From: Flavivirga abyssicola
GTDB taxonomy: Bacteria > Bacteroidota > Bacteroidia > Flavobacteriales > Flavobacteriaceae
Length of the DNA stretch: 64,000 nt
Assembly: GCF_030540775.2 (NCBI RefSeq)
Contig: NZ_CP141266.1
Span: 4,451,001 to 4,515,000, forward strand
Reading direction: 5' to 3'
The translations under genes and the position numbers were made by a program. Shown here one piece after another: positions 13,457 to 44,285 of this stretch. Below the pieces are notes generated by a model. The model was given only the letters and a program-made list of their open reading frames with translations, did no database searches and was not told the origin of the DNA. Each line of letters opens with the position of its first letter. Position 1 is the first letter of the stretch.

Positions 13457-13491
13457 TGTAGACGAATGGTAATTAAGTGTAGACGACCAAT
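13457..13491 (-). promoter_or_regulatory. LytTR-like direct-repeat box 1
   Basis: Two plus-strand repeats, TGTAGACGAATGG (13457) and TGTAGACGACCAA (13478), start exactly 21 nt apart. On the minus strand the first contains ACCATTCGT, 8 of 9 matches to the LytTR consensus [TA][AC][CA]GTTN[AG][TG]. Lies 87 nt upstream of the receiver-glycosyltransferase gene and 55 nt upstream of the divergent membrane-protein gene. Confidence 0.7.
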
Positions 13492-13546
13492 AAAGCTAAC
13501 CGAAAACACTTTATATACCTTTATATTATCAAAAAAATTATAAGCA

Positions 13547-16500
13547 TTGCCACCAAAAACGTCAAATAAATACTTAATTGCTGCTTTACTTATAGGTATA
13601 GCATTTCATGGGACCTCTATCTTTTTTACTTTAGAGGGTACTTACGATGCCTTAATTCATTTGTTTTTTGCTGAGCATTATTCGAGCAGTTGGTTTGAAC
13701 CCTGGAACTACAAGTGGTATACAGGCTTTACGGTTATGAGTTATCCGCCGCTAGTGCATCAAGGCATCGCTGCATTATCATTAATAGGTGGTTTAAAATT
13801 TGGATTATTTACTGTTGCCCTTATCAGCATTGTTTTATTTATAACGGGTGTCTATCGGTTTTCACTGTTAATGACTTCCAGTAGAACTGCAGCAGGTTAT
13901 GCAGCTATTTTAGCCGTATTATCATCGTCGTTTGTAGAAACCCTACATGTGTTTGGACAATTACCAAGTATTATAGGAATCTCGGTTTTAATGCATGCTT
14001 TACCAGAAATTTATTTATGGTTAAAGACAGGTAAATACCGTTACTTACTCACCAGTTTATCTCTAATAGCTGTAACAGTGACCTCGCATCATGTTACCCC
14101 TATTTTCGGAATGATCTTCTTTATATTTCCCTTAATTGGTATGGTGATTATGGATGCGTCTAGAGAGCAGGTTAATACCATGAAAGAAGTCAGATTTAAG
14201 GTGTTCCTAAGAAGCTTTTTTAAGCTTTTTAAACGTATTGTTGGCTTTGGATTACTTTCACTAGTCATTATTGTGGGATGCATTCTTCCCTATTGGATTA
14301 ATTCTAAAAACAACCCCATTACGCAAGTTCCTATACCACATGGTTCCAGAGATAATTTTCTTGAGGTTACGTCTTCTGGATTGGTTTTCTTTTTAATCCC
14401 CTGGGGCATTTTACTTATTCTCTTACCCTATATATTTTATAGATATTATAGCAAACGTTATTTGTTTTTTGGACTATCTATAACCCTTTTAACTGTTTTA
14501 GGAACAGGAGGTACAACCCCAATTCCTAAAATGATCTTGGGAGATACTGCTTTTAATATATTAACTTTAGATAGGTTCACGCTTTGGGCCTCTATTATGT
14601 CTTTGCCCCTTTTCGGTGAATTTGCCTATCGTTTTGTTGAGGGAGATCTAAAAACACGCATTCAAAATACATTTGGTGCTATATATCATAGAATTATAGG
14701 GGGTATTCTTGCTGGTTTATTTTTATTTATGACGATTTTCACGATGAGTTTGGGCTACTTCAGACCTTCACAACCGCAGAAAATAAAGATGCTTCCTATT
14801 GTTAATTTCCTCAATCAAGATCAGCATGATCATTGGCGTTATATGACCTTAGGTTTTGGTGATCAAATGGCATGGTTATCCGCGCAAACCAAAGCCTTGT
14901 CCGTAGATGGCAATTACCACTCAGCAAGACGATTACCCGAACTTACCACACGCCCTATTGAGCGCTTAGAAAATTCAAAATTTAAAGGGGTTGAAGGTAT
15001 TGGTTCTTTACAGCAGTTTTTAACGACACCAGAAAAATATCATTTAAAGTATATTTTTTCTAATGATAAATTTTACGACCCTATTTTATATTTCTGTGGC
15101 TGGCAGCGCTTACGACAATTAGAAAATGGTATTATGGTTTGGGAAAAACTTAATGTCCCTCCTATGCCTTCCATATTACCAAAAGACGATGTTGCACTAT
15201 GGCAAAAAATCCTTTGGGGTGTTATGCCTTTTTTAACGGTTCTTATTGCTTTTATACTGAATATTCAAATGTTATGGATACGCGCTTTAAAAACCAAAGA
15301 AAAAATAACTCCAGCATATTTAAATTTTAAAAACAACTACACAAGCTTTTCAAAAGGCGTTTTAAAAGTCACTCATATTTGGTCTATTATTCTTGCCATA
15401 TTTGTTAATTATGGTATTTACTTATTCTATATCAAGAATGATTCACATCGTTCTCCAGAACATGTGATCATGGCCTATTACGATGCCTTGGATTTTAAAG
15501 CTTTTGAAAAAGCGCATCGTTTAATTAATCCCGAAAGTCATTTACCCATAGCCCAATATATGCTTGAAATATCGGTAACTGATGGGTTATTAAGTTCGTA
15601 TGCAAAATTAGATGCCCTTAAGACTATTGTAACGAGTAAAACGGATAGTTTAGCTAGTGTGAAAGTGATAACCGATTGGATTACACCTTTAGAAAAAATT
15701 AATAAAGTAGATTATAAATCGCTTGTTAAAAAGGATGGTAAATGGTTTCTTCAACCCGAAGATATCAATCTGGACTTGCCTCCAGATCAGTTATATTCAG
15801 ATAACTCAACGCGTTACTTTAATCAAGGTAGACGACGCATCACCACCGAGCAAACCCACCACGAGGATGTTTTAAAACAACCTGTTTTAGAAATTCTTTC
15901 GGCTAAATTGGTAAAACAGGACAATCATTATGCCATTATTGGAGCCATTCAAAATATTGATAATGTTCCCGCAGACGTTGTCCTAAAGGGAACACTTTAT
16001 AATGATGACAATAAAGAACTAGCCACTTATAACGCCAAACATCAGGTCAAACATAAATTAATGCCTAAAGAAGTGAGTGCTTTTAGAATTAATTTTGAAG
16101 GGATTGCTTGGTCTAAAACACAAGATTCTATTCCTAAAACTTTTAATCCAGATGAATTTACGCCTGTGGAATTTGATGAGCAACCCACAAAATTCAATTT
16201 ACAAGTTGCTGGTAATGTATCTGGTTCCGATTTATATAAAGCAACCACTATAAGTGCCTTAAATATCACTTCAGAATCTATTAAAGGGAATTTGTTTAAT
16301 TCTGGATTAGAAGAAGTCACCATTCCACAACTAATTATTTCGTATTACGATACTAATAAAACCATGATCTGGGTAGATCATTTATTTCTTGAAGAAGGCA
16401 TCAGACAACAAAGACAGCAACCTTTTGAATACAAACTACTTCAAAATAATACTATAAAACTTATTAATAGTGATATGACGAACTGTTTTGTAAATGGCTT

Positions 16501-16639
16501 ACCTAATGAAGCTATTTCAAATAAAGTGGTGCCGAATAGAATTGAAGATCAAACACAATCTGTTTTGCAACCCATATCACATTCTCATTATAGTTATGTG
16601 AAAATTGAAGTTAACACCTATATAGGAAATCCAAATTAA
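13547..16639 (+). CDS. Large polytopic membrane protein (PTPS-related/GT-C-like) with periplasmic C-terminus
   Basis: 1030 residues. The first 590 or so hold about 12 membrane segments with acidic and aromatic luminal loops (GTYDALIHLFFAEHY, YPPLVHQGIAAL). This resembles the 6-pyruvoyl-tetrahydropterin-synthase-related membrane family and GT-C glycosyltransferases. After a last membrane helix near 611-632 comes a periplasmic part: an NTF2-like segment (VIMAYYDALDFKAFEKAHRL), then two FxLYD-like beta-sandwiches (GAIQNIDNVPADVV, GNLFNSGLEEVTIP). TTG at 13547 must be the start: an in-frame TAA lies two codons upstream and the next ATG is deep in the membrane domain. Likely sugar polymerase or transferase of the locus (inference). 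Confidence 0.75.
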   Translation: MPPKTSNKYLIAALLIGIAFHGTSIFFTLEGTYDALIHLFFAEHYSSSWFEPWNYKWYTGFTVMSYPPLVHQGIAALSLIGGLKFGLFTVALISIVLFITGVYRFSLLMTSSRTAAGYAAILAVLSSSFVETLHVFGQLPSIIGISVLMHALPEIYLWLKTGKYRYLLTSLSLIAVTVTSHHVTPIFGMIFFIFPLIGMVIMDASREQVNTMKEVRFKVFLRSFFKLFKRIVGFGLLSLVIIVGCILPYWINSKNNPITQVPIPHGSRDNFLEVTSSGLVFFLIPWGILLILLPYIFYRYYSKRYLFFGLSITLLTVLGTGGTTPIPKMILGDTAFNILTLDRFTLWASIMSLPLFGEFAYRFVEGDLKTRIQNTFGAIYHRIIGGILAGLFLFMTIFTMSLGYFRPSQPQKIKMLPIVNFLNQDQHDHWRYMTLGFGDQMAWLSAQTKALSVDGNYHSARRLPELTTRPIERLENSKFKGVEGIGSLQQFLTTPEKYHLKYIFSNDKFYDPILYFCGWQRLRQLENGIMVWEKLNVPPMPSILPKDDVALWQKILWGVMPFLTVLIAFILNIQMLWIRALKTKEKITPAYLNFKNNYTSFSKGVLKVTHIWSIILAIFVNYGIYLFYIKNDSHRSPEHVIMAYYDALDFKAFEKAHRLINPESHLPIAQYMLEISVTDGLLSSYAKLDALKTIVTSKTDSLASVKVITDWITPLEKINKVDYKSLVKKDGKWFLQPEDINLDLPPDQLYSDNSTRYFNQGRRRITTEQTHHEDVLKQPVLEILSAKLVKQDNHYAIIGAIQNIDNVPADVVLKGTLYNDDNKELATYNAKHQVKHKLMPKEVSAFRINFEGIAWSKTQDSIPKTFNPDEFTPVEFDEQPTKFNLQVAGNVSGSDLYKATTISALNITSESIKGNLFNSGLEEVTIPQLIISYYDTNKTMIWVDHLFLEEGIRQQRQQPFEYKLLQNNTIKLINSDMTNCFVNGLPNEAISNKVVPNRIEDQTQSVLQPISHSHYSYVKIEVNTYIGNPN

Positions 16640-17868
16640 TGATGCATAAACTCACATACATACTAGCCATTGTTTTGATGTTTATAGGGTCTTTTTCGCT
16701 TGTAGGGCAATCTGAAATAAAGAATACTTTCAAACTTTTAACCCATGACACTGAATTTGAAGCTGGACATAGCATCTTATTAAAATTTTCTGGTGATGGT
16801 GAAACTAATCCTTTATTATATTGTACCAATAGTTATGGTTCCGTTTTAATTCAGGGCACTAATAAGAACAAAATATTAGCGTTTGAAATACCTAAAAGTA
16901 TAGCAAACAAAACGGGGTTAGTGAATTGGAAACTATTGACTAACGGTACTAACCTATCTGGAAAATTTAATATCACTCCTAAACAAAAGGTTAGTAAAAT
17001 GGAAACTTATCTGGGACCACCAAGTATTGAAGCTGGTGGAACCGATTATTCGATGCTAGTCGTTATTCCAACAGATCCTCTTGATAATCCATTGCAAGAC
17101 AGTACTCAGGTTAACGTAAAGCATCAATTTTTAACTTCAGAATATAATAATGCTATTTATACTAATTATTTAATAGCCTATAAAAACCTGTATTCTGAGA
17201 CTAAATCTGGTCGCATGCTTATTAGTTCGGATGCCTTAGGCACCCATTCTAAAGAATACACTGTTAATGTTTTACCTGCTATTCCTGCTAATTTTAAGAT
17301 CTCGTATCAACAACATCATAACTATGCCGACGGCAATCAAATTACAACATTTACAACCTCTATAATTGAGGACAAATACGATAACATCGTTAGCGATGGT
17401 ACTTATGTAGATTTCTTTATTACAAACAAAGACAATAACATTCTTAAAACATCTGGCACGACAATTAATGGTATTGCCACCGCTAAAATGATCCATCCAG
17501 ACCATGAAGATACCTGGTCGGTGAAGGCATTTATAGAAGGTATGGCAGAAAGCGATAACATATCACTTAATTTTAAACAAGTAATCACAGATTTTGAGGT
17601 CGCCTTTTCAGATGATTCCAGAACCATTACTATTGGTCCCTTGCAAAGTTTTATGAAACAAATGATCCCTGATGGCTTGCAAGTAAAACTACATTTTTAC
17701 CAAAACGACACAAAAATTAAAACACTTTTAAAAAGTTCTTTTGAAGGGTTTGTAACATTCAAATTAAACGAAGATATTATACCTGTACCAAGCGATATAA
17801 ATGACACCTTTAAAATCATCATAGAGACAGCTCGTATTGAAAAATCATTTGAAAACATAAAGCTATAA
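16639..17868 (+). CDS. Exported beta-sandwich protein of the polysaccharide locus
   Basis: 409 residues with a signal peptide (MMHKLTYILAIVLMFIGSFSLVGQ). The rest is beta-rich with Ig-like repeats; the segment around DGNQITTFTTSIIEDKYDNI resembles a bacterial Ig-like (Big_1/invasin) strand pattern. No catalytic motif. Start and stop overlap the neighbours by 1 nt (TAATG on both sides), so it is translationally coupled to the membrane protein and the glycosidase and probably works in the same periplasmic complex. Function unknown. Confidence 0.7.
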   Translation: MMHKLTYILAIVLMFIGSFSLVGQSEIKNTFKLLTHDTEFEAGHSILLKFSGDGETNPLLYCTNSYGSVLIQGTNKNKILAFEIPKSIANKTGLVNWKLLTNGTNLSGKFNITPKQKVSKMETYLGPPSIEAGGTDYSMLVVIPTDPLDNPLQDSTQVNVKHQFLTSEYNNAIYTNYLIAYKNLYSETKSGRMLISSDALGTHSKEYTVNVLPAIPANFKISYQQHHNYADGNQITTFTTSIIEDKYDNIVSDGTYVDFFITNKDNNILKTSGTTINGIATAKMIHPDHEDTWSVKAFIEGMAESDNISLNFKQVITDFEVAFSDDSRTITIGPLQSFMKQMIPDGLQVKLHFYQNDTKIKTLLKSSFEGFVTFKLNEDIIPVPSDINDTFKIIIETARIEKSFENIKL

Positions 17869-19545: not shown

Positions 19546-19551
19546 ACCTCT

Positions 19552-19703: not shown

Positions 19704-19922
19704 ACATACTATGGAGCAGCAGGGGAATATCATAAAGAAGCTCAAACCATCTTTTCTGAAAATAACATCCCTTTTATGTCTTGGACTTTATACGACTTTA
19801 CAAACATACCAAAGGAAGTCGTTGGTAGACTTCCTTGGTGTAAAAATGCTCAAAAACGTTTTGGTTTTATTGATGAAAATGGGACAAAAAAGAATGCTTT
19901 TAAATTTATTTCTAAGCAATAA
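19704..19922 (+). pseudogene. Truncated 3' copy of the glycoside hydrolase gene
   Basis: The frame encodes TYYGAAGEYHKEAQ and then closely follows the C-terminus of the intact glycosidase (SENNIPFMSWTLYDFTNI, KRFGFIDENGTK) to its own TAA at 19920. There is no 5' part: the MITE-like arm ends at 19703. The intact gene carries the same segment at about 19180-19350 with clear divergence (for example PWCKNAQ versus PWRKNNQ), so the duplication is not recent. Its end overlaps the GT4 gene by 11 nt. Confidence 0.8.
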
Positions 19923-21126
19923 CTTCTTGCTTTTGTAGTACGTCTTCTTGCTTTTTTAAAATTATGGATTTAAATGTATTTAAGTACATGTTCGTTATTC
20001 TGGACATAGGGTATGCCGTAGCAGCCTTATAATTGGCGCGTTCTAGTTCTACTCTATAAGCATTATTTTCAAGAATTTTTTGTACTGCCAATGCTAAACT
20101 GCTCACACTTGTTGGCTCGAAAAACTCTCCTCTATACCCTTCATCTTTTACCAAAAGGGCTAAGTCTCCTAGATCTGGCATCACTACCGCTTTACCATAG
20201 CTTCCCGCTTGATGTAAAACACCAGAGCTTCCTGTTGTAGATGTATAAGGAAATACCACAAGCGCACTCTCTTTGAACAATTTTGGTACTTCCTGTTCTT
20301 CAACATAACCCGTAAAGGTTACCCCTTCTACATGGCTATAAGCCTTTTTTACAGACTCTAAATACCCTGGTGTATTTGGATTATCAGTTCCAGCTATAAC
20401 AACTTCTAAATTTAAATTTGAATATGTCTTAATCTCTTCTACAGCTTCAATTAAGTTTTCTACCTTTTTATACGTTCCAAATTTCCCAAAAGTCATCACT
20501 TTAAAAGGTTGTAGCGGTACATTAAAACTTGGCTCTTCAAGAATTTCAAATGTACCATGAGGTATCAGTTTTACATTTTTAGCTTTGTACTTAGCCTCTA
20601 AAGTATCAACGTATTTTTGCATGGTAACGGCAACCACATCAGCTTGAAGAATTAACTTGGTTAAGGTAGATCCTATAAATCCATATAATTTTTGCATGAT
20701 TTTATTCGATGTAAAACCAGCACTCCCTAAATCGACTTCTTCTAAAATATTATGTAATAAAGCTATTGTAGGGATTTTTTTAAGCTTGCAAACTAATGGC
20801 AACATTAAACCTAATGCTGCTGCTACTTTTTTATCACCAAACTTCATAAACTGTAAATTGAATAATACGGCATCTGGTTGTGTTTGGTTTATAGCCTGTG
20901 TTACTTTTATAATATTTGTATAACTATTAAATGACCAACATTCTTTTACGCTGACTTTACAACCTGCTTCTACAAATTGTAAATCTTTTTTACCTTCTGT
21001 TTTATCGGTTAATAAAACAATTTCAGTAATGTTTTCTCTTTGTCTAAAATGTTTTACTAAATGATACGCATATTCATTTAAAGTGACTTTACTTGGCGGA
21101 TACGCTGTTACGATTGCTAGTTTCAT
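19912..21126 (-). CDS. GT4-family glycosyltransferase
   Basis: 404 residues, GT-B fold. The N-terminal half starts MKLAIVTAYPPSKVTLNEYA, with an acceptor-side domain to about 190. The C-terminal half shows the donor-binding pattern of family 4: VMTFGKFGTYKKVENLIEAV, EVVIAGTDNPN, VTFTGYVEEQEVPKLF, then VVFPYTSTTGSSGVLHQAG. It probably adds a sugar to the lipid-linked or nascent polysaccharide made by this locus. It has its own LytTR-like box upstream. Confidence 0.88.
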   Translation of the reverse strand: MKLAIVTAYPPSKVTLNEYAYHLVKHFRQRENITEIVLLTDKTEGKKDLQFVEAGCKVSVKECWSFNSYTNIIKVTQAINQTQPDAVLFNLQFMKFGDKKVAAALGLMLPLVCKLKKIPTIALLHNILEEVDLGSAGFTSNKIMQKLYGFIGSTLTKLILQADVVAVTMQKYVDTLEAKYKAKNVKLIPHGTFEILEEPSFNVPLQPFKVMTFGKFGTYKKVENLIEAVEEIKTYSNLNLEVVIAGTDNPNTPGYLESVKKAYSHVEGVTFTGYVEEQEVPKLFKESALVVFPYTSTTGSSGVLHQAGSYGKAVVMPDLGDLALLVKDEGYRGEFFEPTSVSSLALAVQKILENNAYRVELERANYKAATAYPMSRITNMYLNTFKSIILKKQEDVLQKQEVIA

Positions 21127-21211
21127 AAGTTTATTTTTTTAATGTTTCTAATAATTTTATTCCTTTGTTATGGTGTAAATTTGAGGATTTAAAAGTCTAA
21201 AAAGGGGCGAT

Positions 21212-21246
21212 TGTAGATGGGTTAGCGTTTACTGTAGACGAATGGT
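21212..21246 (-). promoter_or_regulatory. LytTR-like direct-repeat box 2
   Basis: Plus-strand TGTAGATGG (21212) and TGTAGACGAATGG (21233) start exactly 21 nt apart. The second gives ACCATTCGT on the minus strand. The first shares the TGTAGA flank but its core is weak. Lies 85 nt upstream of the GT4 start, the same spacing as box 1 to its gene. Confidence 0.7.
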
Positions 21247-21880: not shown

Positions 21881-23122
21881 TTAAATTCTTCTCTGATCTA
21901 GTTTGAAAAATATAAGTTGAATAATCAGCAATAAAACCATAGCAATAATCTGCATATACACAACTTGCTCTAAACTATCGTGAAAAAAGATCACTAATAC
22001 CATTTGAAGCATTCCAAACACACCAGATATAACGACTGGTACATATTTATCTAAAGACAAATAGTAATATGCAAATATGTTAGAAATAGCAAACATACTT
22101 GTTGCAATAGCATATTTCCATAAAAGTGGTGCCATAGCAATATAACTCTCACCAAATAATAGTTTTATGATGGTTTCGGGAAAACTTAAACATGCTAAAA
22201 CAATTGTTATCGAAATAGCTGCTATATACCCAACATATTTAAACAATATGGATGCTGTTTCCTTACCCTCCTTTTTAAGTTGTACCACTGTTGGTAACAA
22301 CAACATGACAAACATCCAGGCTATAAAGTATACCATACGCCCTATTAAAGCTAAAGAAGCATATAAACCTGCTTCATAAGATTCAAAATAATGCTTTACT
22401 AAAAGAATATCACTATTGTTTATTATGATTTGTGTTAATTCATAAAACGCTGTTAATATGAAAAACTGCTTTATTTGTTTCGCTTGGACAACTGATATCA
22501 ATGATTTCGATTTAAGATCGATTGACTTGAACTTAAAAGGTATTAAGCCAAACCCGAATGAAATTAAAATACCTATCGCTATAACGACTGAAGATTGTAT
22601 GTTAAACAAAAAGATCAATGCCAAGGTGAAGAACAAACGACTCAACATTTCTGATTGATACGTCATAGATAATGCTTTAAATGCTTTTTTTCCTTGAAAA
22701 GCACCTCTGTTTACACTCATTAAAAAGTATAAGGGTACTCCACAACCAAAAATTACGAACATACTAGATGAGGATGTGTTAAACAGTTCTTGCAATTGTG
22801 TTGCAAAACCGACAATTAAAGCCCCCATTACAATGCCGACAATTAATGCATTTTTATAGATTTTTGAAACAATACTTTTAAATAATTGATTTTCAAAAAG
22901 TACAGAAAACTTTGCAGTGACTAACTGAAACGTCATCGCAACAAAAGACAATACCAACAAGAAGGTTATTAATACTGCTGCATCTGCAAACTGTGCTGGC
23001 CCTAACAAACGACCAAGAATTAGGTTATACAAATAATTCCCGCCATTTACAGCCAGAACACTTATCATAAATAGCTGCTCCGGAGAAATTCTTTTCCTTA
23101 AATTATTTACTATCGTAATCAT
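21881..23122 (-). CDS. Wzx/MATE-like polysaccharide flippase
   Basis: 413-residue integral membrane protein with about 12 membrane segments. The N-terminal half has the pattern of O-antigen/teichoic-acid flippases (NGGNYLYNLILGRLLGPAQF, VNRGAFQGKKAFKALS) and a central NSDILLVKHYFESYEAGLYA. It should move a lipid-linked glycan across the inner membrane. Its ATG overlaps the end of the preceding STAS gene by 20 nt, so the two are translated together. Confidence 0.87.
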   Translation of the reverse strand: MITIVNNLRKRISPEQLFMISVLAVNGGNYLYNLILGRLLGPAQFADAAVLITFLLVLSFVAMTFQLVTAKFSVLFENQLFKSIVSKIYKNALIVGIVMGALIVGFATQLQELFNTSSSSMFVIFGCGVPLYFLMSVNRGAFQGKKAFKALSMTYQSEMLSRLFFTLALIFLFNIQSSVVIAIGILISFGFGLIPFKFKSIDLKSKSLISVVQAKQIKQFFILTAFYELTQIIINNSDILLVKHYFESYEAGLYASLALIGRMVYFIAWMFVMLLLPTVVQLKKEGKETASILFKYVGYIAAISITIVLACLSFPETIIKLLFGESYIAMAPLLWKYAIATSMFAISNIFAYYYLSLDKYVPVVISGVFGMLQMVLVIFFHDSLEQVVYMQIIAMVLLLIIQLIFFKLDQRRI

Positions 23123-23411
23123 TTTTAAAAATATTATTTAGATTAGAGGTCTTAAATTGTTTGTTAATTCTTTTATTCTCTTTTCCTAAAACAAAAAGTG
23201 TTTTGCTTCTTCTTTTGGCTTTAGCTGCTATAAATTGCATGACATTTAAAGCCGTATCATCCATACGTTTCACCTGATTTAGGCATATAACAACCTCATA
23301 ATACGTATCCAATAGATTATTAAAGTAAGTGGCTACCTGATTGGTATGCTCGTTAATAAAATCACCATGGATTTCAAAAACGCCTCTGTTATTTATAATT
23401 TTGAAGTTCAT
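23103..23411 (-). CDS. STAS-domain protein with Thr at the phosphorylation position
   Basis: 102 residues, STAS fold (anti-sigma-factor-antagonist type). The motif KRMDDTALNVMQF places Thr53 where SpoIIAA-type proteins have the phosphorylated Ser. The preceding GDFINEHTNQVATYFNNLL is the usual first helix. The ATG at 23411 is used; the longer frame from 23444 adds no domain sequence. Lies between a second STAS gene and the flippase, implying post-translational control of polysaccharide output. Confidence 0.8.
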   Translation of the reverse strand: MNFKIINNRGVFEIHGDFINEHTNQVATYFNNLLDTYYEVVICLNQVKRMDDTALNVMQFIAAKAKRRSKTLFVLGKENKRINKQFKTSNLNNIFKNDYDSK

Positions 23412-23444
23412 AATATTTAGATTTGAGTTTATACTAAGAATCAA

Positions 23445-23723
23445 TTATGCTGCATAGGTAAATATGAAATCATCATAGACTTCTTTACATCCAGTACCAA
23501 CAATATAAAATGGTCTGTTATAAATTAAAGCATTGTTGTAAAGCGCTCTTAAAGCTTGCATACCACTAGCATCAATTTCTGTGACATTTTCTATATCTAT
23601 AGTTAGAGTTTCATAAGTATTTAAAATAGCCTCTAAATGATTTTGAAAATTTAGAGCTGTAGTCGTGTTAATAGTTCCTTCTACTAAAAATGTTCCGTTT
23701 TGATCTGTAATTTTAAGTGCCAT
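23445..23723 (-). CDS. STAS-domain protein with canonical Ser site
   Basis: 92 residues. EGTINTTTALNFQNHLEAIL and VTEIDASGMQALRAL give the complete STAS pattern, with Ser53 in the DASGM loop as the predicted phosphorylation site. First gene of the minus-strand STAS-STAS-flippase operon and preceded by LytTR-like box 3. The minus-strand word CATCTTTG (23764-23771) is near the -7 consensus. No partner kinase of the SpoIIAB/RsbW type is visible in the window. Confidence 0.85.
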   Translation of the reverse strand: MALKITDQNGTFLVEGTINTTTALNFQNHLEAILNTYETLTIDIENVTEIDASGMQALRALYNNALIYNRPFYIVGTGCKEVYDDFIFTYAA

Positions 23724-23799
23724 AATTTTTATTTTTTAGTTATTATTCTTTTAACTTCTGATACAAAGATGCTATCAAACCTTTAAATTTTATGGTCAA

Positions 23800-23834
23800 T
23801 ATCGGTGAGTGGCAGGTTGCTGTAGATGAATGAT
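23800..23834 (-). promoter_or_regulatory. LytTR-like direct-repeat box 3
   Basis: The most diverged copy: TGTAGATGAATGAT at 23821 with a weaker partner TATCGGTGAGTGG 21 nt before it at 23800. The minus-strand core is ATCATTCAT (7 of 9 to the LytTR consensus). Lies 76 nt upstream of the STAS operon and 41 nt upstream of the divergent TPR/beta-barrel gene, so it could serve both. Confidence 0.55.
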
Positions 23835-27287: not shown

Positions 27288-27324
27288 TTTTTTAAAGTAC
27301 TAACCTTTAGATTTAGGAATAAAC

Positions 27325-27954: not shown

Positions 27955-28141
27955 TTAGTTAGTCCGTTTTTCAGCATTAATGGCAACATCGGTATATAAT
28001 TACTTGTAACTATATATCCATTATATAAACCACTAATATAATAAGTTATTTCCTTTAATTTATTTACATTTTAAACATAAAAAAGACAAAAAACTTACGC
28101 CTTTTGCCTTTTCAAAAAAATAAAACTAGAGTAGCTATTAA

Positions 28142-30721
28142 TTATTCTATAAGTAATTTTATTGTTTTATAAGTTGTTGCTTTGCTTTTTATATTACAGA
28201 AATACACCCCCGAACCTAAACCTGTTCTTTCTAGTTTCACTTTATTTTCACCTCTAACAGCTTCATGCATCATCTTTTTCACCAAACTTCCTAATTGATT
28301 ATAAACTAGCAGCTCAACTTTTCCTGAATCCTGACTTGTAAAATGTATCGTTGTACTAGACACCATAGGGTTTGGAGACGCAAACGTTTTGCTTAGTTCA
28401 TCGTTAGTAAATGCTTCTACCGAAAGCGTATTACTAGTCGAAAAATGTAATTGCTGTAAAGTCATTTCTTTAGTTTCTACTTCACCAGTTTCTGCTAACA
28501 TGGTAAATACTATAGACGTGATATCATTAGTTTCGAAATTATTACCATTAATAGATTTAAAGTCAGAAAAAGGTATACTATAATCTTGTAAGCTATTAGT
28601 TAATGGTATTCTTGCTTTATATTGCTTCTCCCAGTTACTAATACCTTCCTTAACCAATCTTACGATCAATGTTCCTGTACCTTTAGCTTTAAACTGAAAG
28701 CTATTATAAGCTGATAAATCGATAGGATTAAACTTTGGCGTTAAAGCTCTATATACAGCAATATATTCACTAGTGTTAGCTACCAATTCTATATTACGTT
28801 CTATAGGATATTCATCATCATTAAATTCCTCTTCATTAGGTTCAACATGATATGTATTTACTACGGTACTTGGTGCGGCATTATCGTATCCCCAAGGACC
28901 ATCGGACATAAATAAATCATCTGGTGTTTGTATGCCATCTCCTATTCTAAAACCTATATCAAAAAGATTACCTGCATCTACTTCTATGTTTGTAATGTAG
29001 TTTCCATCTAAATCTAAGGTTGACGATACGTATTCTAACGTATTTGTTTCGGTAGCTCTTAAACCACCATCAAATTTAACAGCTTCACTTCTATTCGTAT
29101 TTACAATTTGTAGTTCTAACCTTCCATGGTGATATTTTCCTTTTCTAACAAACACTGTTGGTGATGTTGAGTTATTATAACTCGTTACTGGTTTTTGAAC
29201 GCCTAATAACCTTACCACTTCTTCACCAAGGCGTAATAGATCATCTAGAGAATTAGACCAGATTTGGAAATTATAAAATGGTACATTGTCTTCGTATTTA
29301 TCCAAATTCCAATGGCTTTCAATTCCAAAATCGCGACCTTCATTTATAGGTTTTGCTGATAAACTCAATACAAATTCCAAAGAACCATCAATATTTCTAA
29401 TCAATGCTTTTATAAATTTTTGTTCTTGAATCTCTATAGTTGATACCGAAATTAACTCAGCGCCTAACAATCTATCGCAAATGTATTTCGTGTGTTCATA
29501 AACCCCTTTATCGGTTTTAAGGACAAGTATCGATGCTACTGCTTCATCTGCCTTCATATAATCTACTGAATATATATCGGTAGCATTTGTGATGTTTAAC
29601 AAATCTGTAGGCGACGATTCTATAACATGGTCTTCATTTAAAATTTCCAACGGCACAAAATCTGATAATTGCAATCCTTTTTTAGCTGTTTTTTTACCAT
29701 ACTTTGCCGATTTTGTAAATCGCTTCGCTGACGCTTTATCAAACTTATAATTGTTCTTAACTCTATCGAAGTTTCGCTTATTAATCTGTTCAGATAATCT
29801 GTTGTTACTTTCCAATCCTCCAGAATTACCACTAGACGTTGGTGCTTCCATTACAGGACAAGCTGCATAACCAGAACATGAAGGATCTTCACAATCTATT
29901 AAACCGTCACCGTCATCATCAATACCATTGGTACAATCTTCTTGAGGTACTGGAGCTGTTGGACAACGTGCTCCATCATTTTGAGAACTTGAAGGTCCAA
30001 AAGCAAACAGATTAGAATTCATAGTATTCGTACCATCTAAGTCTTGCACATTTTGTATCACATAAATAGTTCCTGTTTGATTCGCTGATACATAAAAACG
30101 ACCAGAGGCATCAAAATAAACGGCACCATACGTGTAATTTAAACCAGATAAGATTGGGACTTCGCCTAAATTTTCCACGGTGCCGCTTTCAGCATTTATA
30201 CGATATAATATATTCGTTTTCTTTTCTACGGTATATAATTTACCATCCACGGCATTAAATGCCCAGTCGTGAATGCTTATGCTTTTTGATAAATTCTTAG
30301 TTGCTATATAACTTCCGTAGTTATCAGATTCAGGATTTAAATCTATAACATAATATGGTGTCCCTCCTGCTTTTAAATAATAAATGCCTTCAGCACTAAC
30401 ATCTCCAACATATCTGCCGTTTGTTGGCAATTCATCTACATAAAAAGTAAGCGTCGAAAAATCTTTACCTATTCTAACAATAGATTTTGAAGGATAGCTT
30501 AATGACCCCCATATAAATCCATCTGCAGGATTGTATGCGGCTGCGTTAATAGTTCCTTCTGTTACATCGGTTGCCACTGCATATGAACTACCAGAAGCCA
30601 AGTCTATAGCATATACATCATTATATTGAAATAAGTAAGCATTATAATCACAATTAAACGGAATGTCTTGTGTATATACATTCGTGTAAATAAGCACAAG
30701 TAGTAGTAATATTTTTTTCAT
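28142..30721 (-). CDS. Large T9SS-secreted surface protein with carbohydrate-binding-like region
   Basis: 859 residues. Signal peptide, then a beta-propeller-like repeat region (about 25-255; VYAIDLASGSSYAV), a MopE-type acidic Ca-binding motif CTNGIDDDGDGLIDCEDPSC at about 262-281, a DUF4114-like part (VFVRKGKYHHGRLELQIVN, DIGFRIGDGIQTPDDLFMSD) and a CBM-like jelly-roll segment at about 660-750. The C-terminal 80 residues (SPNPMVSSTTIHF to TIKLLIE) are a type A T9SS sorting domain. Preceded by a good -7 element and LytTR-like box 4, so it is probably a surface or matrix protein co-regulated with the polysaccharide. Confidence 0.8.
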   Translation of the reverse strand: MKKILLLLVLIYTNVYTQDIPFNCDYNAYLFQYNDVYAIDLASGSSYAVATDVTEGTINAAAYNPADGFIWGSLSYPSKSIVRIGKDFSTLTFYVDELPTNGRYVGDVSAEGIYYLKAGGTPYYVIDLNPESDNYGSYIATKNLSKSISIHDWAFNAVDGKLYTVEKKTNILYRINAESGTVENLGEVPILSGLNYTYGAVYFDASGRFYVSANQTGTIYVIQNVQDLDGTNTMNSNLFAFGPSSSQNDGARCPTAPVPQEDCTNGIDDDGDGLIDCEDPSCSGYAACPVMEAPTSSGNSGGLESNNRLSEQINKRNFDRVKNNYKFDKASAKRFTKSAKYGKKTAKKGLQLSDFVPLEILNEDHVIESSPTDLLNITNATDIYSVDYMKADEAVASILVLKTDKGVYEHTKYICDRLLGAELISVSTIEIQEQKFIKALIRNIDGSLEFVLSLSAKPINEGRDFGIESHWNLDKYEDNVPFYNFQIWSNSLDDLLRLGEEVVRLLGVQKPVTSYNNSTSPTVFVRKGKYHHGRLELQIVNTNRSEAVKFDGGLRATETNTLEYVSSTLDLDGNYITNIEVDAGNLFDIGFRIGDGIQTPDDLFMSDGPWGYDNAAPSTVVNTYHVEPNEEEFNDDEYPIERNIELVANTSEYIAVYRALTPKFNPIDLSAYNSFQFKAKGTGTLIVRLVKEGISNWEKQYKARIPLTNSLQDYSIPFSDFKSINGNNFETNDITSIVFTMLAETGEVETKEMTLQQLHFSTSNTLSVEAFTNDELSKTFASPNPMVSSTTIHFTSQDSGKVELLVYNQLGSLVKKMMHEAVRGENKVKLERTGLGSGVYFCNIKSKATTYKTIKLLIE

Positions 30722-30741
30722 GATAGTTGTATTTAATACTA

Positions 30742-30749
30742 CAAAGCTA
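30742..30749 (-). promoter_or_regulatory. -7 promoter element for the large T9SS protein
   Basis: Minus-strand TAGCTTTG, a full match to TAnnTTTG, 20 nt before the ATG at 30721. LytTR-like box 4 starts 28 nt further upstream. Confidence 0.55.
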
Positions 30750-30776
30750 TATGACTATAAGTGTTTAAATTTTAAT

Positions 30777-30811
30777 TTTCGGTGGATGAAAATTAAGTGT
30801 AGACGAATGGT
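30777..30811 (-). promoter_or_regulatory. LytTR-like direct-repeat box 4
   Basis: TGTAGACGAATGGT at 30798 with a weak partner (TTTCGGTGGATGA) 21 nt before it. The minus strand reads ACCATTCGT. The flank AATTAAGTGTAGACGAATGG is identical or nearly so in boxes 1, 4 and 5. It lies 55 nt upstream of the gene start. Confidence 0.65.
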
Positions 30812-31777: not shown

Positions 31778-32491
31778 TTACAATAAATTTAAACGCTTCA
31801 TCAGTTCTGGTCTATTAGAACGACTTACTGGAATCACATCTTTTTTAATCAGTACGCTATTATCTTCAATGTCTATGATTTTTTTAATATTAATGATGTA
31901 CGAACGGTGTACTTTGAGGAATAGTGAATCTGGCAACTTCTCTTCAATCTTTTTTAAAGTAGAATGCACCGTGTAATTTTTATCTTCCGTTTTCACGTTG
32001 ATATAATCGCCTTTTGCCTCTATGAGATAGATACTAGGAATATCTAGTTTTATTAAACGTCTGTCTATATTTATATATAAATCATTACCTGAAGCTGTTT
32101 CTACAGCATCTACTGACTCTCTACTTTTTACAGGTTCCGAATTGGTTGCTTCTGCTTTTTGAATCGCTTTTTCAAAACGTGGCAAAGCTATGGGTTTTAC
32201 CAAGTAATCTACAATACAATCGTATTCAAAAGCTTCGATTGCAAAGTTAGTGTCTGAAGTTGTTAGAATTATTTTAGGTGGATTTTTTAACGTTTGAATA
32301 AAATCAAATCCTGTAAAATCTGGCATATGTATATCTAAAAAGATAAGATCTACATGATTTTGATTTAGATATTTAATGGCTTGAATCGCATTGGGAAATT
32401 CTTCGAGAATATTTAATCTTGGGATATTTATACAAAGCTGAGAGATAATAGCTCTAGCAGTAGCTTCGTCATCAATAATAATACAATTCAT
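31778..32491 (-). CDS. LytTR-family response regulator
   Basis: 237 residues. Receiver domain with Asp7-Asp8, phospho-acceptor Asp53 (FLDIHMPDFTG), Thr and Lys (LVKPIALPRF). The LytTR DNA-binding domain covers about 133-237 (YLIEAKGDYINVKTEDKNYT, LFLKVHRSYIINIKKI). LytTR proteins bind direct repeats of about 9 bp spaced by 12 bp, a 21-bp period. Last gene of the H-NOX operon, 9 nt after the Hpt gene. The inferred regulator of the five 21-nt-spaced boxes. Confidence 0.93.
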   Translation of the reverse strand: MNCIIIDDEATARAIISQLCINIPRLNILEEFPNAIQAIKYLNQNHVDLIFLDIHMPDFTGFDFIQTLKNPPKIILTTSDTNFAIEAFEYDCIVDYLVKPIALPRFEKAIQKAEATNSEPVKSRESVDAVETASGNDLYINIDRRLIKLDIPSIYLIEAKGDYINVKTEDKNYTVHSTLKKIEEKLPDSLFLKVHRSYIINIKKIIDIEDNSVLIKKDVIPVSRSNRPELMKRLNLL

Positions 32492-32500
32492 AAAAAGTGA

Positions 32501-32821
32501 TTATAGTGTCTTTAAAAAGTCTGTAATAAGTTTTAAAATGGTATCGAAATCTTGTTTACCTACCATACTGCCTTCTTTTAAATTATTTTCAAAATCGTCA
32601 GCTATCTTATAACTTTTTTCAAGTCCTAAAATACTAATTTTATGTTTAATTTTGTGTACATTTTCTGCTGATTCTTTAAAGTTTTTAGCCTCAATATTCT
32701 TTATGTAAATATCTTTTTCGCTCGGAAACTCATTTTTAATAATAGTTATCAACTTGGCTTTAAAAGCCTCATCCCCGCCTGAAAGCGTATCTATGTATGA
32801 CAAATTAGGCAGTTCCCTCAT
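32501..32821 (-). CDS. Histidine phosphotransfer (Hpt) protein
   Basis: 106 residues, all-helical. The motif ENVHKIKHKISILGL matches the Hpt H-x-x-K phosphorylation site with His56 as the likely phosphate carrier. Stand-alone Hpt proteins pass phosphate between receiver domains. Its ATG overlaps the kinase stop by 1 nt (TAATG), and the LytTR gene follows after 9 nt, so a relay kinase to receiver to Hpt to LytTR is likely. Confidence 0.85.
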   Translation of the reverse strand: MRELPNLSYIDTLSGGDEAFKAKLITIIKNEFPSEKDIYIKNIEAKNFKESAENVHKIKHKISILGLEKSYKIADDFENNLKEGSMVGKQDFDTILKLITDFLKTL

Positions 32822-34797
32822 TACTTTTTAAGTGTAAAATAAAACGTCGTACCATTTCCTACTTCAGAATCAATCCAGATTTCGCCTTTATATAAGTCAA
32901 CTATTTTTTTGACTATAGAGAGCCCTATACCTGTTGATTCTTTACTTGTATTAAGAGAGTGAAATATTTTAAAAATCTTATGATGATATTCCTTTTCAAT
33001 ACCGACTCCATTATCTTTTATTGAAAATTGATAAAACGATTTTTGTTCTAATACATCTATTTCAATAATACCTTCTTCTTTATCATTAAACTTGACGCCA
33101 TTGCTTATTAAGTTTTGAAATAGCTGCTTAAGCTTTGTTTTATCGCCTTTTACTATAGGTAATTTGTTAAGTACATTTATAGAAATGTGTTCTGGCACAA
33201 ACAGTATTGTTTTTAGTTCATTAACTACGTCATTTAAATCTACGGGTTCTTTTTCGGAAGCCTCAGAACTAATACTGGAATACAGCAAAATATCAGAAAT
33301 AAGCTGTTCCATCTTTTCTAATGTTGTTTCTATAAGTTCGAAATTCTGAATACTCACAGCATCCAACTTACCTTTGTTATCTTCTTTTATCCAATTCACT
33401 AAAGCATCTATACTACGTAATGGTGACTTTAAATCATGAGACACTATGTGCGCATATTCTTGTAACTCATCATTACTTTTTTCCAGCTTTACTAACAATT
33501 TTTCTTTCTGGAGTTCCAATTTTTTTATCTCAGTGATATCTAAATGAACACCTATAGACCCTACCAATTCCCCATTTAAATTATAGTTGGGAGCACCACT
33601 TATTAACCAATGCCTATCTTCTTTTGATTTATTTTTAACCTTTATTTCATACGAGTGTGACTCTCCTTTATCGCGCTTTACGTCTTTAGTTTCTATAACT
33701 TCAGCGTTTTCTTCAGTTAAGAATAGTTCCTTACCCGTTCTTCCTATGAGTTCTTTTTCTAAATACCCTGACATTTCAGAAAAACTCTGGTTAATCATTA
33801 GTATTTTACCATCATTATCAGCTTCAACCAAACCTAAGTTCATGTTGGCAATAATATTGCTATATTTTTGTCTTTGAGCTTCTAAGCTTTGGTGATAATT
33901 TCGTTTTAAAGTAACATCCCTATAACTCCATAAATGCCCTTTATATACATTGTTTTTAAAAATAGGGATATAATCGCGCTCCAAAATTTTCCCATCTAGC
34001 ATTTTAAGTTCATCTCCTAAAACAGTCTTTTTGTTTTTTAGGGTTTCATTGATTTTTGATATGAATTTTTCTGCATCTACAAACAGGGTTTTGCTATGCT
34101 CTGCTGCATTTGAACAATCCTGCCCTACCATTAATTCTGGAGATATAGGAATACCAAACAACTCACAAAACTTCTTGTTAGTGAGCACTATTTTCCTGTT
34201 TTCATCTTCAAGTAAAACACCACTATCTAAATTGAGAATGAGCGTTGATAATCTATTTTCAGATTCAATTAATTGTTCCTCATTTTGTTTGGCTATGGTT
34301 ATGTCTCTAACAATGCCTTGTGCTGCTACAGGAATACCTTTATCGTAAATAACACTAGCATTAATATGAACCAATTTGGATTCTTTTTTTCTGGTAATAA
34401 TATTTAGAAAAAAATCTGTAATGGCACCATTTTTTAATAAAGACTTAAATGAATCTGTAACACGTTTAGTCTCTGCTGGTGCTGCCATTTTTATAAGGTT
34501 GAAATTTTCCTTAGCATCATCAAACCCCAACATATCTACGGCAGCATCATTCATTTTTAGAATATACCCTTGAAGATCTATAATAACATAGGCATCAACG
34601 ATATTCTCAAAAACACCTTGCAACTGAGAATCTGTTTTATCCAGTAATGCTTCTAGCTCCGAATAAGATTTTTCTAATTTTTGTTTGGCCTCGTATAATT
34701 CGGCTGCTTTATCTTCAAGGATTTTTTCTGCCTGTTTTCTGGCTGCTTTTTCGCGTGCGAGTGCACGTTTTAACATGTCAATTTGATCTTGACTCAT
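32821..34797 (-). CDS. Soluble triple-PAS histidine kinase
   Basis: 658 residues, no membrane segment. An N-terminal coiled coil (about 5-60), then three PAS domains (about 62-170, 185-305, 313-430), each followed by a PAC-like DIT motif (VRDITIAKQ, YRDVTLKRN, HLDITEIKK). HisKA has the H-box HIVSHDLKSPLRS, and the ATPase has NLISNGVKFND, DNGVGIE and STGIGLSIVKKIV. There is no fused receiver or Hpt, which are separate proteins here. ATG overlaps the H-NOX stop by 1 nt, so it is the probable H-NOX partner kinase. Confidence 0.93.
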   Translation of the reverse strand: MSQDQIDMLKRALAREKAARKQAEKILEDKAAELYEAKQKLEKSYSELEALLDKTDSQLQGVFENIVDAYVIIDLQGYILKMNDAAVDMLGFDDAKENFNLIKMAAPAETKRVTDSFKSLLKNGAITDFFLNIITRKKESKLVHINASVIYDKGIPVAAQGIVRDITIAKQNEEQLIESENRLSTLILNLDSGVLLEDENRKIVLTNKKFCELFGIPISPELMVGQDCSNAAEHSKTLFVDAEKFISKINETLKNKKTVLGDELKMLDGKILERDYIPIFKNNVYKGHLWSYRDVTLKRNYHQSLEAQRQKYSNIIANMNLGLVEADNDGKILMINQSFSEMSGYLEKELIGRTGKELFLTEENAEVIETKDVKRDKGESHSYEIKVKNKSKEDRHWLISGAPNYNLNGELVGSIGVHLDITEIKKLELQKEKLLVKLEKSNDELQEYAHIVSHDLKSPLRSIDALVNWIKEDNKGKLDAVSIQNFELIETTLEKMEQLISDILLYSSISSEASEKEPVDLNDVVNELKTILFVPEHISINVLNKLPIVKGDKTKLKQLFQNLISNGVKFNDKEEGIIEIDVLEQKSFYQFSIKDNGVGIEKEYHHKIFKIFHSLNTSKESTGIGLSIVKKIVDLYKGEIWIDSEVGNGTTFYFTLKK

Positions 34798-35336
34798 TAA
34801 TTTTTATTAATTAAAAACTTAACCTCTGTTCCGTCTTCTTTTATTTTTTCTAACTCTATGGTAGCAGTAGCATCAAAGTGCTCGAATGTTTTATTCATTA
34901 ATCCCAACCCAAAATGGTGCATCGCTCTGCTTGATTTATATACCATGACAAGTGAATTATCTGTTTTTTCAACAACTTCGAAAGTAGGCAATTCTGCATC
35001 TGGATAAATTTTTCTGACTTCTACATGAATATGATTTTCAATAGATGCCAACATATTTATGGGATCTTTATAAGTGGCTAAAAGCCCTGGATAGCTTTGC
35101 TTTAAAACATCAAAAAAATGTTCTGCATAAACTAACAACAAATCGTCTATTTCTATATTTGTATGGGCACTTAAATGCTGAAGTAATTGAAGCATTTCTG
35201 AGAATTTATAAGTTCCTACTGCTGTATAAATACCTTCGGACTCTAACTCAGATTGGGATATAATGGTATCGACCATTTCTAATCCAAATTTTTCCTCAAC
35301 AAGATCTAAAAACTCTGTAAATACAATACCTTTCAT
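34797..35336 (-). CDS. H-NOX heme gas-sensor protein
   Basis: 179 residues, begins MKGIVFTEFLDLVEEKFG, the standard HNOB start. Proximal heme ligand His104 lies in NHIHVEVRKIYPDAELPTF, and the heme-propionate motif YxSxR is Tyr133, Ser135, Arg137 (VYKSSR). Bacterial stand-alone H-NOX proteins bind nitric oxide and inhibit or modulate a neighbouring histidine kinase. The 1-nt overlap with the PAS kinase gene is a classic arrangement. Expected to sense NO in the cytoplasm. Confidence 0.94.
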   Translation of the reverse strand: MKGIVFTEFLDLVEEKFGLEMVDTIISQSELESEGIYTAVGTYKFSEMLQLLQHLSAHTNIEIDDLLLVYAEHFFDVLKQSYPGLLATYKDPINMLASIENHIHVEVRKIYPDAELPTFEVVEKTDNSLVMVYKSSRAMHHFGLGLMNKTFEHFDATATIELEKIKEDGTEVKFLINKN

Positions 35337-35468
35337 ATATTAAATTTTATAATTAAGACAATTAGTTAGTTAAAAATTGAGAGTCCATAAATCTGTAATG
35401 TTCTCCTCTAAAATTTTGAACATTCCTTTTTTATGACAAGTATCCTTGAAATTTGTTGCTATATAGTT

Positions 35469-35885
35469 TTACTTAATTTCTATTAATTCATTAATACTCC
35501 AATACGCCAGTAAGTTTTCTATTTTAGTAACATAATCCTCATATTTTAAAGGTTTTAAAACGTAACCAGCTATGCCTAATTTATAACATTCTAACAAATC
35601 TTTTTGGTTATTTGAAGTTGTTAATATTATGGCAGGAATATGTCTTAACTTTTCATCTTTTTTTAAAATGGACAAAAACTCCAAACCATTAATTTTTGGC
35701 ATGTTTAAATCTAATAAAATTATGTGAGGTAATTCGTATTTTTTTTCTAAAATTTTTAAAGCTTCTTCCCCATTATGAGCTTCTACGATATTATGCTTAA
35801 GGCCTAGAGATGAAATAACCCTATTTAGCTTCATAATTTCAATCATGTCGTCTTCTATAAGTAGAACTTTTAAATTATTTTTCAT
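35469..35885 (-). CDS. Single-domain response regulator
   Basis: 138 residues, receiver domain only. Glu11-Asp12-Asp13 (LLIEDDMIE), phospho-acceptor Asp59 (IILLDLNMPKING), LTTSNNQ and LKPLKYEDY are intact. ATG at 35885 is used; the longer frame begins with an unlikely leader. There is a 132-nt gap to the H-NOX gene. With no output domain it is a good candidate for the middle receiver of a kinase-receiver-Hpt-LytTR relay. Confidence 0.88.
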   Translation of the reverse strand: MKNNLKVLLIEDDMIEIMKLNRVISSLGLKHNIVEAHNGEEALKILEKKYELPHIILLDLNMPKINGLEFLSILKKDEKLRHIPAIILTTSNNQKDLLECYKLGIAGYVLKPLKYEDYVTKIENLLAYWSINELIEIK

Positions 35886-35963
35886 CGTAAAAAATTTAAT
35901 TCGGTAGTAAAAATAAAGCAAAGTGATAAACTCTATAGTAGACTTCGTTAAATTGAATTTAAG

Positions 35964-35998
35964 TGTCGTTCAATGGAAATTAAGTGTCGACGAATGGT
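35964..35998 (-). promoter_or_regulatory. LytTR-like direct-repeat box 5
   Basis: TGTCGTTCAATGG (35964) and TGTCGACGAATGG (35985) start exactly 21 nt apart. Both halves are good here: minus-strand TCCATTGAA (7 of 9) and ACCATTCGT (8 of 9). Lies 78 nt upstream of the receiver/H-NOX/kinase/Hpt/LytTR gene set, suggesting autoregulation. Confidence 0.7.
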
Positions 35999-44263: not shown

Positions 44264-44285
44264 AATTAAGTATTTTTATACGTAC

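Follow-up and report, generated by a model that had tools for sequence, protein, structure and literature searches.

The window analysed here, 64,000 nucleotides of the Flavivirga abyssicola genome, raises the question of what reads five similar boxes that lie upstream of polysaccharide genes and of an H-NOX phosphorelay operon. Very probably, they are operators of the LytTR regulator encoded at 31778-32491, which is predicted to activate from them its own relay operon, the gene of a secreted protein and polysaccharide genes. A putative LytTR regulon of polysaccharide genes and the H-NOX relay had been suggested by the first-pass annotation, and it is largely supported by genome ranks, association with the LytTR ortholog and promoter geometry. 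The five boxes are present as annotated, all on one strand and each upstream of a minus-strand gene:

13457..13490, minus strand: box 1, half-sites 13457-13469 and 13478-13490 in the 21-bp register; -7 type element TACTTTTG at 13400-13407
21212..21245, minus strand: box 2, half-sites 21233-21245 and 21212-21224 (weaker); imperfect -7 element CAAATTTA at 21176-21183
23800..23833, minus strand: box 3, half-sites 23821-23833 (2 mismatches) and 23800-23812; -7 type element CATCTTTG at 23764-23771
30777..30810, minus strand: box 4, half-sites 30798-30810 and 30777-30789; -7 element TAGCTTTG at 30742-30749
35943..35997, minus strand: box 5, half-sites 35985-35997 and 35964-35976, possible third 35943-35955; -7 type element TATTTTTA at 35908-35915

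The word TGTAGACGAATGG is exact at 13457, 21233 and 30798, reads TGTCGACGAATGG at 35985 and, with 2 mismatches, TGTAGATGAATGA at 23821; GACGAATGGT is identical in four boxes, and the partner words at 21 nt were found as well. With the matrix of the first half-site itself, the partners score 11.0 in box 5, 4.5 in box 1, -1.4 in box 2 and -2.0 in box 4, compared to a mean of -32.7 at other offsets across the boxes; box 3 lies outside that scoring. It matches the cross-genome site model described below via its second half-site and is conserved in the sister species (G019). Box 4 is the top-scoring site of the genome with this model, and boxes 2, 3 and 5 are without an exact -7 element. The distance to the start codon, given before as mostly 76-87 nt, had to be revised to 87, 106, 97, 76 and 99 nt for boxes 1 to 5, because a STAS reading frame (23445-23723) follows box 3 and the first gene of the relay operon most likely starts with the ATG at 35885, as judged from comparison with its orthologs.

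The genes behind the boxes and those of the relay operon are the following:

12176..13369, minus strand: predicted target of box 1, fusion of a response-regulator receiver and a GT2 glycosyltransferase, 397 aa (Pfam Response_reg 5e-24, Glycos_transf_2 2e-22)
19912..21126, minus strand: predicted target of box 2, GT1 glycosyltransferase, 404 aa (Pfam Glycos_transf_1 1.2e-19)
23445..23723, minus strand: predicted first target of box 3, STAS domain protein, 92 aa (Pfam STAS 7.5e-8), absent from the first-pass list
23103..23411, minus strand: second STAS gene of the box 3 unit (Pfam STAS 8.9e-5), start taken from the comparison with G019
21881..23122, minus strand: polysaccharide flippase of the box 3 unit (Pfam Polysacc_synt_3 4.1e-11)
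28142..30721, minus strand: predicted target of box 4, secreted DUF6923 protein with a T9SS tail, 859 aa (Pfam DUF6923 6.7e-24, Por_Secre_tail 3e-9)
35469..35885, minus strand: RR, single-domain response regulator, gene 1 of the relay operon behind box 5 (Pfam Response_reg 1.8e-22)
34797..35336, minus strand: H-NOX haem sensor (Pfam HNOB 3.2e-39)
32821..34797, minus strand: PAS histidine kinase (Pfam PAS, HisKA, HATPase_c; HATPase_c 3.6e-25)
32501..32821, minus strand: Hpt phosphotransfer protein, a weak call (Pfam Hpt E 0.002, below cut-off)
31778..32491, minus strand: LytTR response regulator, the proposed reader of the boxes (Pfam LytTR 8.5e-22, Response_reg 1.2e-17)

The regulator gene is found where it had been annotated, and its own operon is preceded by box 5, located before RR. 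By Pfam, the H-NOX domain adjoins a histidine kinase, and the receiver, kinase and output regulator domains are clear; only the Hpt protein stays below the cut-off, as do two of its orthologs (0.0038 and 3.7e-5). Of 80 loci that surround LytTR orthologs, 76 show the order RR-H-NOX-HK-Hpt-LytTR. A NO reductase gene adjoins the H-NOX operon in the sister species G019 and was considered as a conserved neighbour; since neither the other 80 loci nor window positions 8001-45000 contain a reading frame homologous to it at E 1e-10, it was left out of the argument.

Within the window, the 10-mer GACGAATGGT alone is not significant (4 matches at up to one mismatch, reached in 14 of 100 window shuffles) and was for this reason dropped as evidence. 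The 13-mer at up to three mismatches has 24 matches, a number reached in none of 100 shuffles. Genome-wide, ACCATTCGTCNACA occurs exactly four times, each time inside the window, and seven times at up to one mismatch compared to three for the reversed control; for the bare 9-mer CCATTCGTC the numbers are 16 and 9. Our argument is based on comparative tests in place of shuffle statistics.

For the comparison between genomes, we trained a site model on 92 sites from other genomes, with the window sites held out (117 sites were found and 110 listed, of which 18 were dropped by hand for thinning, without a rule). With this model the five boxes take the first five ranks of the 4.68-Mb genome, with E values between 1.6e-8 and 2.4e-3 (0.06 for the next hit), so that the motif, which might have proved to be scattered at random positions, has its five best genomic sites in exactly the five window boxes. 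As additional sites, hits 6 to 12 were inspected and rejected: hit 6 has no gene ahead on its own strand, and the others are inside reading frames, of 66 codons for hit 7 and of more than 100 codons for hits 8 to 12. Hits 15 and 17 fall within boxes 1 and 5, and hits 13, 14 and 16 were left out of the inspection.

In the 80 LytTR-ortholog loci, the word occurs 196 times at up to one mismatch, always on the LytTR strand, compared to 10 times for the reversed word, and 78 loci contain at least one. The exact word has 92 matches at up to 30 kb from the LytTR gene, all 92 on the strand of that gene. A box precedes RR in 71, the DUF6923 ortholog in 39 and the GT1 ortholog in 18 of the 80 loci, counts which exclude four window boxes; box 3 is outside the 189-box set because of its two mismatches. 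The cross-locus comparison also revealed that the flanks carry little information and the box carries it.

Among 128 non-redundant boxes, the best downstream partner is located at +21 in 86 and at +22 in 14, corresponding to a spacer of 12-13 bp. Spacers of 12-13 bp are likewise described for LytTR pairs in two reports (PMC6193735, PMC11347149), and LytTR direct repeats are about 9 bp long with spacers of 10-13 bp (spacer range from PMC11347149); with their +21/+22 partners, the boxes thus have the direct-repeat architecture of LytTR operators. The averages at -21 and +42 have a z of 2.3 and are not above the best background offset, thus a third half-site was rejected as a general rule and is claimed only as possible. 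Where a TAnnTTTG (-7) element is present downstream, it is located at offset 61, 62, 82 or 83 in 75 of 76 cases. If this element is placed at -12 to -5, as in PMC9723704, the promoter-adjacent repeat register is found at about -52 to -40 in both geometries and the 0/+21 pair is centred at about -56; for AgrA repeats, a centre at about -60 is given in PMC4227749. A mapping of DNA-contact residues onto AgrA was given up, since AgrA did not appear in the sequence-based list of solved structures, and we claim no contact residues. Position just upstream of the promoter core, with one site on the regulator's own operon, is again what characterises LytTR operators. The sigma-A -33 TTG was considered as positive support and rejected, since box promoters almost always lack it (2 of 75 carry it, compared to 12 of 96 other promoters; Fisher p 0.024, a modest difference), and we take this scarcity as activator dependence.

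The boxes could also be sites of the same LytTR protein that act as repressor sites relieved by phosphorylation, as with Shewanella HnoC, which is not known to be a LytTR protein; we regard this as unlikely. HnoC represses the hno regulon until it is phosphorylated (PMC8738867), and three direct repeats serve the LytTR protein CoxC as repressor sites (PMC11347149). However, the CoxC repeats overlap the -35 box, whereas here the proximal register ends at about -40, upstream of the promoter core, and the rarity of the -33 TTG is expected if the promoters depend on an activator.

Among 199 Flavobacteriaceae genomes, the model matches in 63 of the 83 with a LytTR ortholog, a rate that is partly by construction since the model was trained on LytTR-locus sites and the 199 may include some of the training species, and in 1 of the 116 without one (Fisher 8e-33). 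In this comparison, proposed in the first-pass annotation, LytTR-less relatives do not keep the motif, with few exceptions (G049, G158). Exact words number 114 in the 83 genomes and 14 in the 116, the latter about the rate of the reversed word (17 in 199 genomes). Genomes with LytTR and without H-NOX have a match in 7 of 10 cases, genomes with H-NOX and without LytTR in none of 5; the sites track LytTR, not H-NOX. In two genomes (G005, G115) the kinase directly follows RR, and the sites are retained. No match at E 1e-3 was obtained in 20 of the 83 genomes, in part owing to filter losses (G140 has two exact tandem words and no model match). An exact word near the gene was found in 25 of 38 genomes with orthologs of at least 75% identity and in 2 of 12 with the most divergent ones (48-64%).

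Still less probable, by a small step, is that another factor, whether unrelated or from among the genome's 14 further LytTR proteins, reads the boxes and merely shares the neighbourhood, with the linked LytTR acting elsewhere. The genome encodes 15 LytTR proteins, and two genomes retain a box without a LytTR ortholog: in G049 the box precedes RR-H-NOX and the best LytTR protein is 42% identical (its H-NOX frame contains a stop, which may reflect decay), and in G158, an 87%-complete genome, a site is present. Against this stand the split between genomes with and without the ortholog, the sites in H-NOX-less genomes that retain the LytTR gene and the identity of at most 43% between the other LytTR proteins of the genome and the relay LytTR. 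An RNA leader element, a mobile repeat or chance can practically be dismissed, the insignificant bare 10-mer notwithstanding, given the fixed distances to the -7 element, the absence of any Rfam family at threshold in 12000-37300, the low information in the flanks compared to the box, the strand-biased words in 80 loci, the held-out ranks and the LytTR-dependent genome split.

Our preferred reading, activation by the linked LytTR regulator, suggests the following scheme. Each operator would be a tandem of two direct half-sites with the core ACCATTCGTCKACA and a 21-bp period, with perhaps a third at some promoters. It would directly precede a sigma-A promoter, in most cases one without the -33 TTG, and phosphorylated LytTR would recruit RNA polymerase from there. 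Phosphate would most likely flow from the PAS kinase associated with H-NOX via the single-domain RR and then Hpt to LytTR. The same order is found in the Bacillus Spo0 phosphorelay (kinase, single-domain RR, phosphotransferase, DNA-binding RR), which differs in DNA-binding domain, sensor and targets. LytTR would activate its own operon in a positive feedback, the gene for the secreted T9SS protein and, in this genome, the glycosyltransferase, STAS and flippase genes; in this way matrix polysaccharide production would be set by transcription in response to the H-NOX ligand, which is probably NO. Tentatively, and with chances somewhat short of even, this might be a Flavobacteriaceae cassette with an exchangeable sensor, in which a conserved RR/kinase-core/Hpt/LytTR tail and the 21-bp operator drive matrix polysaccharide transcription, H-NOX can be lost or exchanged and NO acts via a transcription factor, not c-di-GMP.

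The core CCATTCGTC fits 8 of 9 positions of what we take to be the LytTR family consensus. It also resembles, as annotated, the core of Pseudomonas aeruginosa AlgR (CCGTTCGTC, 8 of 9), a LytTR response regulator that controls polysaccharide (alginate) genes; the AlgR sites described in PMC4064291 are single cores at positions that range from far upstream to the interior of genes, one of them inverted, unlike the tandem 21-bp arrays at a fixed distance to the -7 element found here. The LytTR regulatory systems of Streptococcus mutans and others (PMC6193735) also use direct repeats, 9-bp units separated by 11-13 bp, which adjoin the -35 element on its upstream side and are present on the operon that encodes the regulator. 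Their regulator is controlled by a membrane inhibitor, where we propose a phosphorelay; one predicted Staphylococcus aureus half-site in the table of that paper (ACCATTCAA) is close to the box core. The CO-responsive RcoM1 and CoxC are likewise gas-linked LytTR regulators with three direct repeats (18-21 bp apart for CoxC), but have the sensor fused to the DNA-binding domain, CoxC represses, and the RcoM1 consensus TTCNNGCA is unlike the box core (PMC11347149). In Shewanella oneidensis hno (H-NOX, kinase, HnoC, HnoD), H-NOX also adjoins a kinase and a transcription factor feeds back on the H-NOX regulon; according to PMC8738867, the relay there has c-di-GMP as a further output and HnoC acts by repression, whereas the operon described here ends in a LytTR regulator with predicted polysaccharide targets.

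In our searches of open-licence literature, no paper was found on H-NOX with a LytTR output, nor on H-NOX in Flavobacteriaceae or Bacteroidota. A predicted operator, a promoter geometry and a target list are now available for the H-NOX pathway in Flavobacteriaceae, and a NO-to-matrix pathway of a large bacterial family becomes directly testable in binding and reporter assays. Beyond the first-pass annotation, the analysis provides the fixed promoter geometry, the H-NOX-less relatives that keep the boxes, the possible third repeat and predicted box targets in other genomes, which additionally include a UDP-glucose dehydrogenase, an outer-membrane efflux-type protein and a CAP protein.

The five LytTR-like box words described in the first-pass annotation lie at the positions given there, on a common strand, and each is located upstream of a minus-strand gene. 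The distances to the gene starts, which had been put at mostly 76–87 nt, were corrected, and the target of box 3 was absent from the earlier list. The boxes are listed here with the flavobacterial -7 element TAnnTTTG, its offset counted from the box word.

Box 1, 13457: 87 nt before the GT2 fusion gene (minus strand); exact -7 element at +62
Box 2, 21233: 106 nt before the GT1 gene (minus strand); two-mismatch -7 element at +62
Box 3, 23821: 97 nt before a STAS gene of 92 aa (23445-23723, minus strand); one-mismatch -7 element at +62
Box 4, 30798: 76 nt before the gene for a secreted DUF6923 protein (minus strand); exact -7 element at +61
Box 5, 35985: 99 nt before the RR gene of the relay operon (minus strand); one-mismatch -7 element at +82

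The start of the relay operon is most likely the ATG at 35885 rather than the TTG at 35921. On the sense strand the half-site reads ACCATTCGTCKACA, and the exact 14-mer ACCATTCGTCNACA is present in four copies in the genome, all of them inside the window. In the box 1 target (12176-13369) a receiver domain and a GT2 glycosyltransferase are fused in one protein; phosphorylation may thus regulate this polysaccharide enzyme directly, in addition to box 1. At 23103-23723, two small STAS proteins precede a polysaccharide flippase, a pairing also seen in the sister species (G019).

Within the window the 10-mer has no significance, since 14 of 100 shuffles reach the four matches seen when one mismatch is allowed. 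It is the comparative evidence by which the boxes exceed chance. In 80 loci with a LytTR ortholog, fetched by protein similarity (the best 80 of at least 560), the word (one mismatch allowed) has 196 occurrences and the reversed word 10; all 196 share the LytTR gene's strand, and 78 loci carry at least one. A sequence-only site model built from 92 sites of ortholog loci, none from the window, was run against the window's own genome. Had the motif been scattered at random, other positions would be expected at the top, but matches 1 to 5 are the five boxes (E values of 1.6e-8 for box 4, 1.3e-6 for box 2, 2.6e-6 for box 5, 8.2e-4 for box 1 and 2.4e-3 for box 3) and the sixth has an E value of 0.06. 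The regulon in this genome is therefore, at the model's sensitivity, a single 22-kb island.

A set of 189 boxes that includes four from the window served to determine the repeat anatomy; 128 were left once similar boxes had been removed. The first half-site is nearly invariant in the 189, partly because it was used as the search word; the upstream flank is poor in information, and positions +13 to +33 carry a good deal. The proposed 21-nt period was borne out by the 128 boxes: the +21 register averages 7.1 standard deviations over other offsets, and 86 boxes have their best downstream partner at +21, 14 at +22. The best upstream partner lies at -21 in 38 of the 128, and the averages at -21 and +42 (z 2.3) are not above the best background offset. 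Of 13 positions, boxes before RR genes match on average 9.56 at +21 and 5.64 at +42, against 5.50 for the best other offset; for boxes before GT1 genes the means are 6.63 at -21 and 5.84 at +21, against 5.16 for the best other offset. Judged from these averages and class means, a third repeat is likely in some promoters, not as a proven rule.

The boxes keep a fixed distance to the promoter. At offsets of 36 or more, TAnnTTTG occurs 76 times, 75 of them at +61, +62, +82 or +83, two offset pairs that are one repeat apart, although these counts are not independent, the sequences being related. Five scrambled or reversed control motifs gave 2 to 15 occurrences, with no offset above two, and the same geometry was found again before unrelated genes. 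With the -7 element at -12 to -5, as placed in PMC9723704, the promoter-adjacent repeat register lies at about -52 to -40. A TTG at -33 is present in 2 of 75 box promoters versus 12 of 96 other promoters.

Gene order RR, H-NOX, HK, Hpt, LytTR is found in 76 of the 80 loci. There, 71 boxes precede RR (71 loci), 41 DUF6923 (39 loci) and 18 GT1 (18 loci). Further boxes precede a CAP-domain protein (11), STAS genes (8), UDP-glucose dehydrogenase (4), an efflux-type outer-membrane protein (3) and, once each, an O-antigen-ligase-like protein and a protein that Pfam does not match. Six boxes precede a small ORF upstream of RR that has no Pfam match above the cut-off. Pfam was run on one representative of each of these classes. 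Of the 189 boxes, 22 have no ORF start within 30–200 nt downstream. The sister species retains boxes before RR, DUF6923, STAS1 and GT1 (four promoters covered).

Which gene of the relay the box accompanies was addressed in 199 Flavobacteriaceae genomes. A LytTR ortholog (E 1e-60 or better) is encoded in 83, H-NOX in 78 and both in 73. The window's LytTR protein shares 91–95% identity with those of two Flavivirga species, which suggests that its host, a member of Flavobacteriaceae, is probably close to Flavivirga. Ortholog-bearing genomes contain 114 copies of the exact word and genomes without the ortholog 14; the reversed word has 17 copies in all 199. Ninety-two of the 114 are no more than 30 kb from the LytTR gene, all on its strand, and the remaining 22 elsewhere. 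Close to the LytTR gene the exact word grows scarce with ortholog divergence: it is found in 25 of 38 genomes at 75% identity or more, 17 of 33 at 65–74% and 2 of 12 below. Sites are present in 7 of 10 genomes with LytTR but not H-NOX (in three of the ten, G048, G062 and G170, the contig ends before H-NOX would show) versus none of five with H-NOX but not LytTR. In G005 and G115 the kinase directly follows RR, with no H-NOX between, and sites are present; locus L086 retains the box before RR with no H-NOX at the thresholds used. Thus, the box accompanies LytTR more than H-NOX. G082 shares the H-NOX-less operon of G005 and G115, with no site found.

The expectation that genomes lacking this LytTR gene would not keep the box held with rare exceptions: the site model matches in 63 of the 83 genomes with the ortholog, a rate partly due to construction since the training sites came from LytTR loci, and in 1 of the 116 without, which is unaffected by this. 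Twenty ortholog-bearing genomes gave no match, some due to filters, as with G140, which has tandem exact words. The exceptions are G158, an 87%-complete genome with a site, and G049, with a box before RR-H-NOX; neither has an ortholog. In G049 the closest LytTR protein is 42% identical, the H-NOX reading frame has an internal stop, and the kinase is followed by a FIST-domain gene (L180, 6970-12154) with Hpt and LytTR genes absent after the kinase: the output of this relay may have been lost or rewired. Relay operons without H-NOX lie in L181, L182 and L186, and the PAS plus GAF kinases of the latter two suggest sensor exchange. The kinases of G005 and G082 have GAF in addition to PAS, and the window's kinase PAS only.

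We read the boxes, from sequence, as predicted LytTR activator operators, with binding and sign of regulation both predicted. Going by gene content, phosphate would pass from the kinase to RR, Hpt (a Pfam match below threshold) and LytTR, and the H-NOX domain points to NO as the probable ligand. Known LytTR sites (PMC6193735) are 9-bp direct repeats with 11–13 bp spacers upstream of -35, found also on the regulator's own operon. Triple repeats are described for the gas-linked RcoM1 and CoxC (PMC11347149), and promoter-proximal AgrA repeats centre at about -60 (PMC4227749), compared with about -56 here. The box core differs from the AlgR core (PMC4064291) in one base out of nine. LytTR regulons are a known kind of system; within the reach of our literature searches, both this combination and this operator are new. 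Nothing was found for H-NOX with Flavobacteriaceae or Bacteroidota, and among the matches listed for H-NOX with Bacteroidetes or Flavobacteri- no title concerns this system. In one of the papers that contain both H-NOX and LytTR, LytTR is mentioned for AgrA only.

In the sister species a NorB-type NO reductase and an Rrf2 regulator adjoin the H-NOX operon (L192, 1190-5087); no homolog was found in the other 80 loci. In the window, the relay is adjoined by a likely nitrate/nitrite assimilation region (37764-54646):

37764-39197: nitrite/sulfite reductase half-domain protein
39194-42715: molybdopterin oxidoreductase fusion
42842-44263: MFS transporter
48850-50664: PilJ-type sensor kinase
52127-54646: NirB-like protein

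The first of these genes has an ortholog in 14 of the 80 loci.
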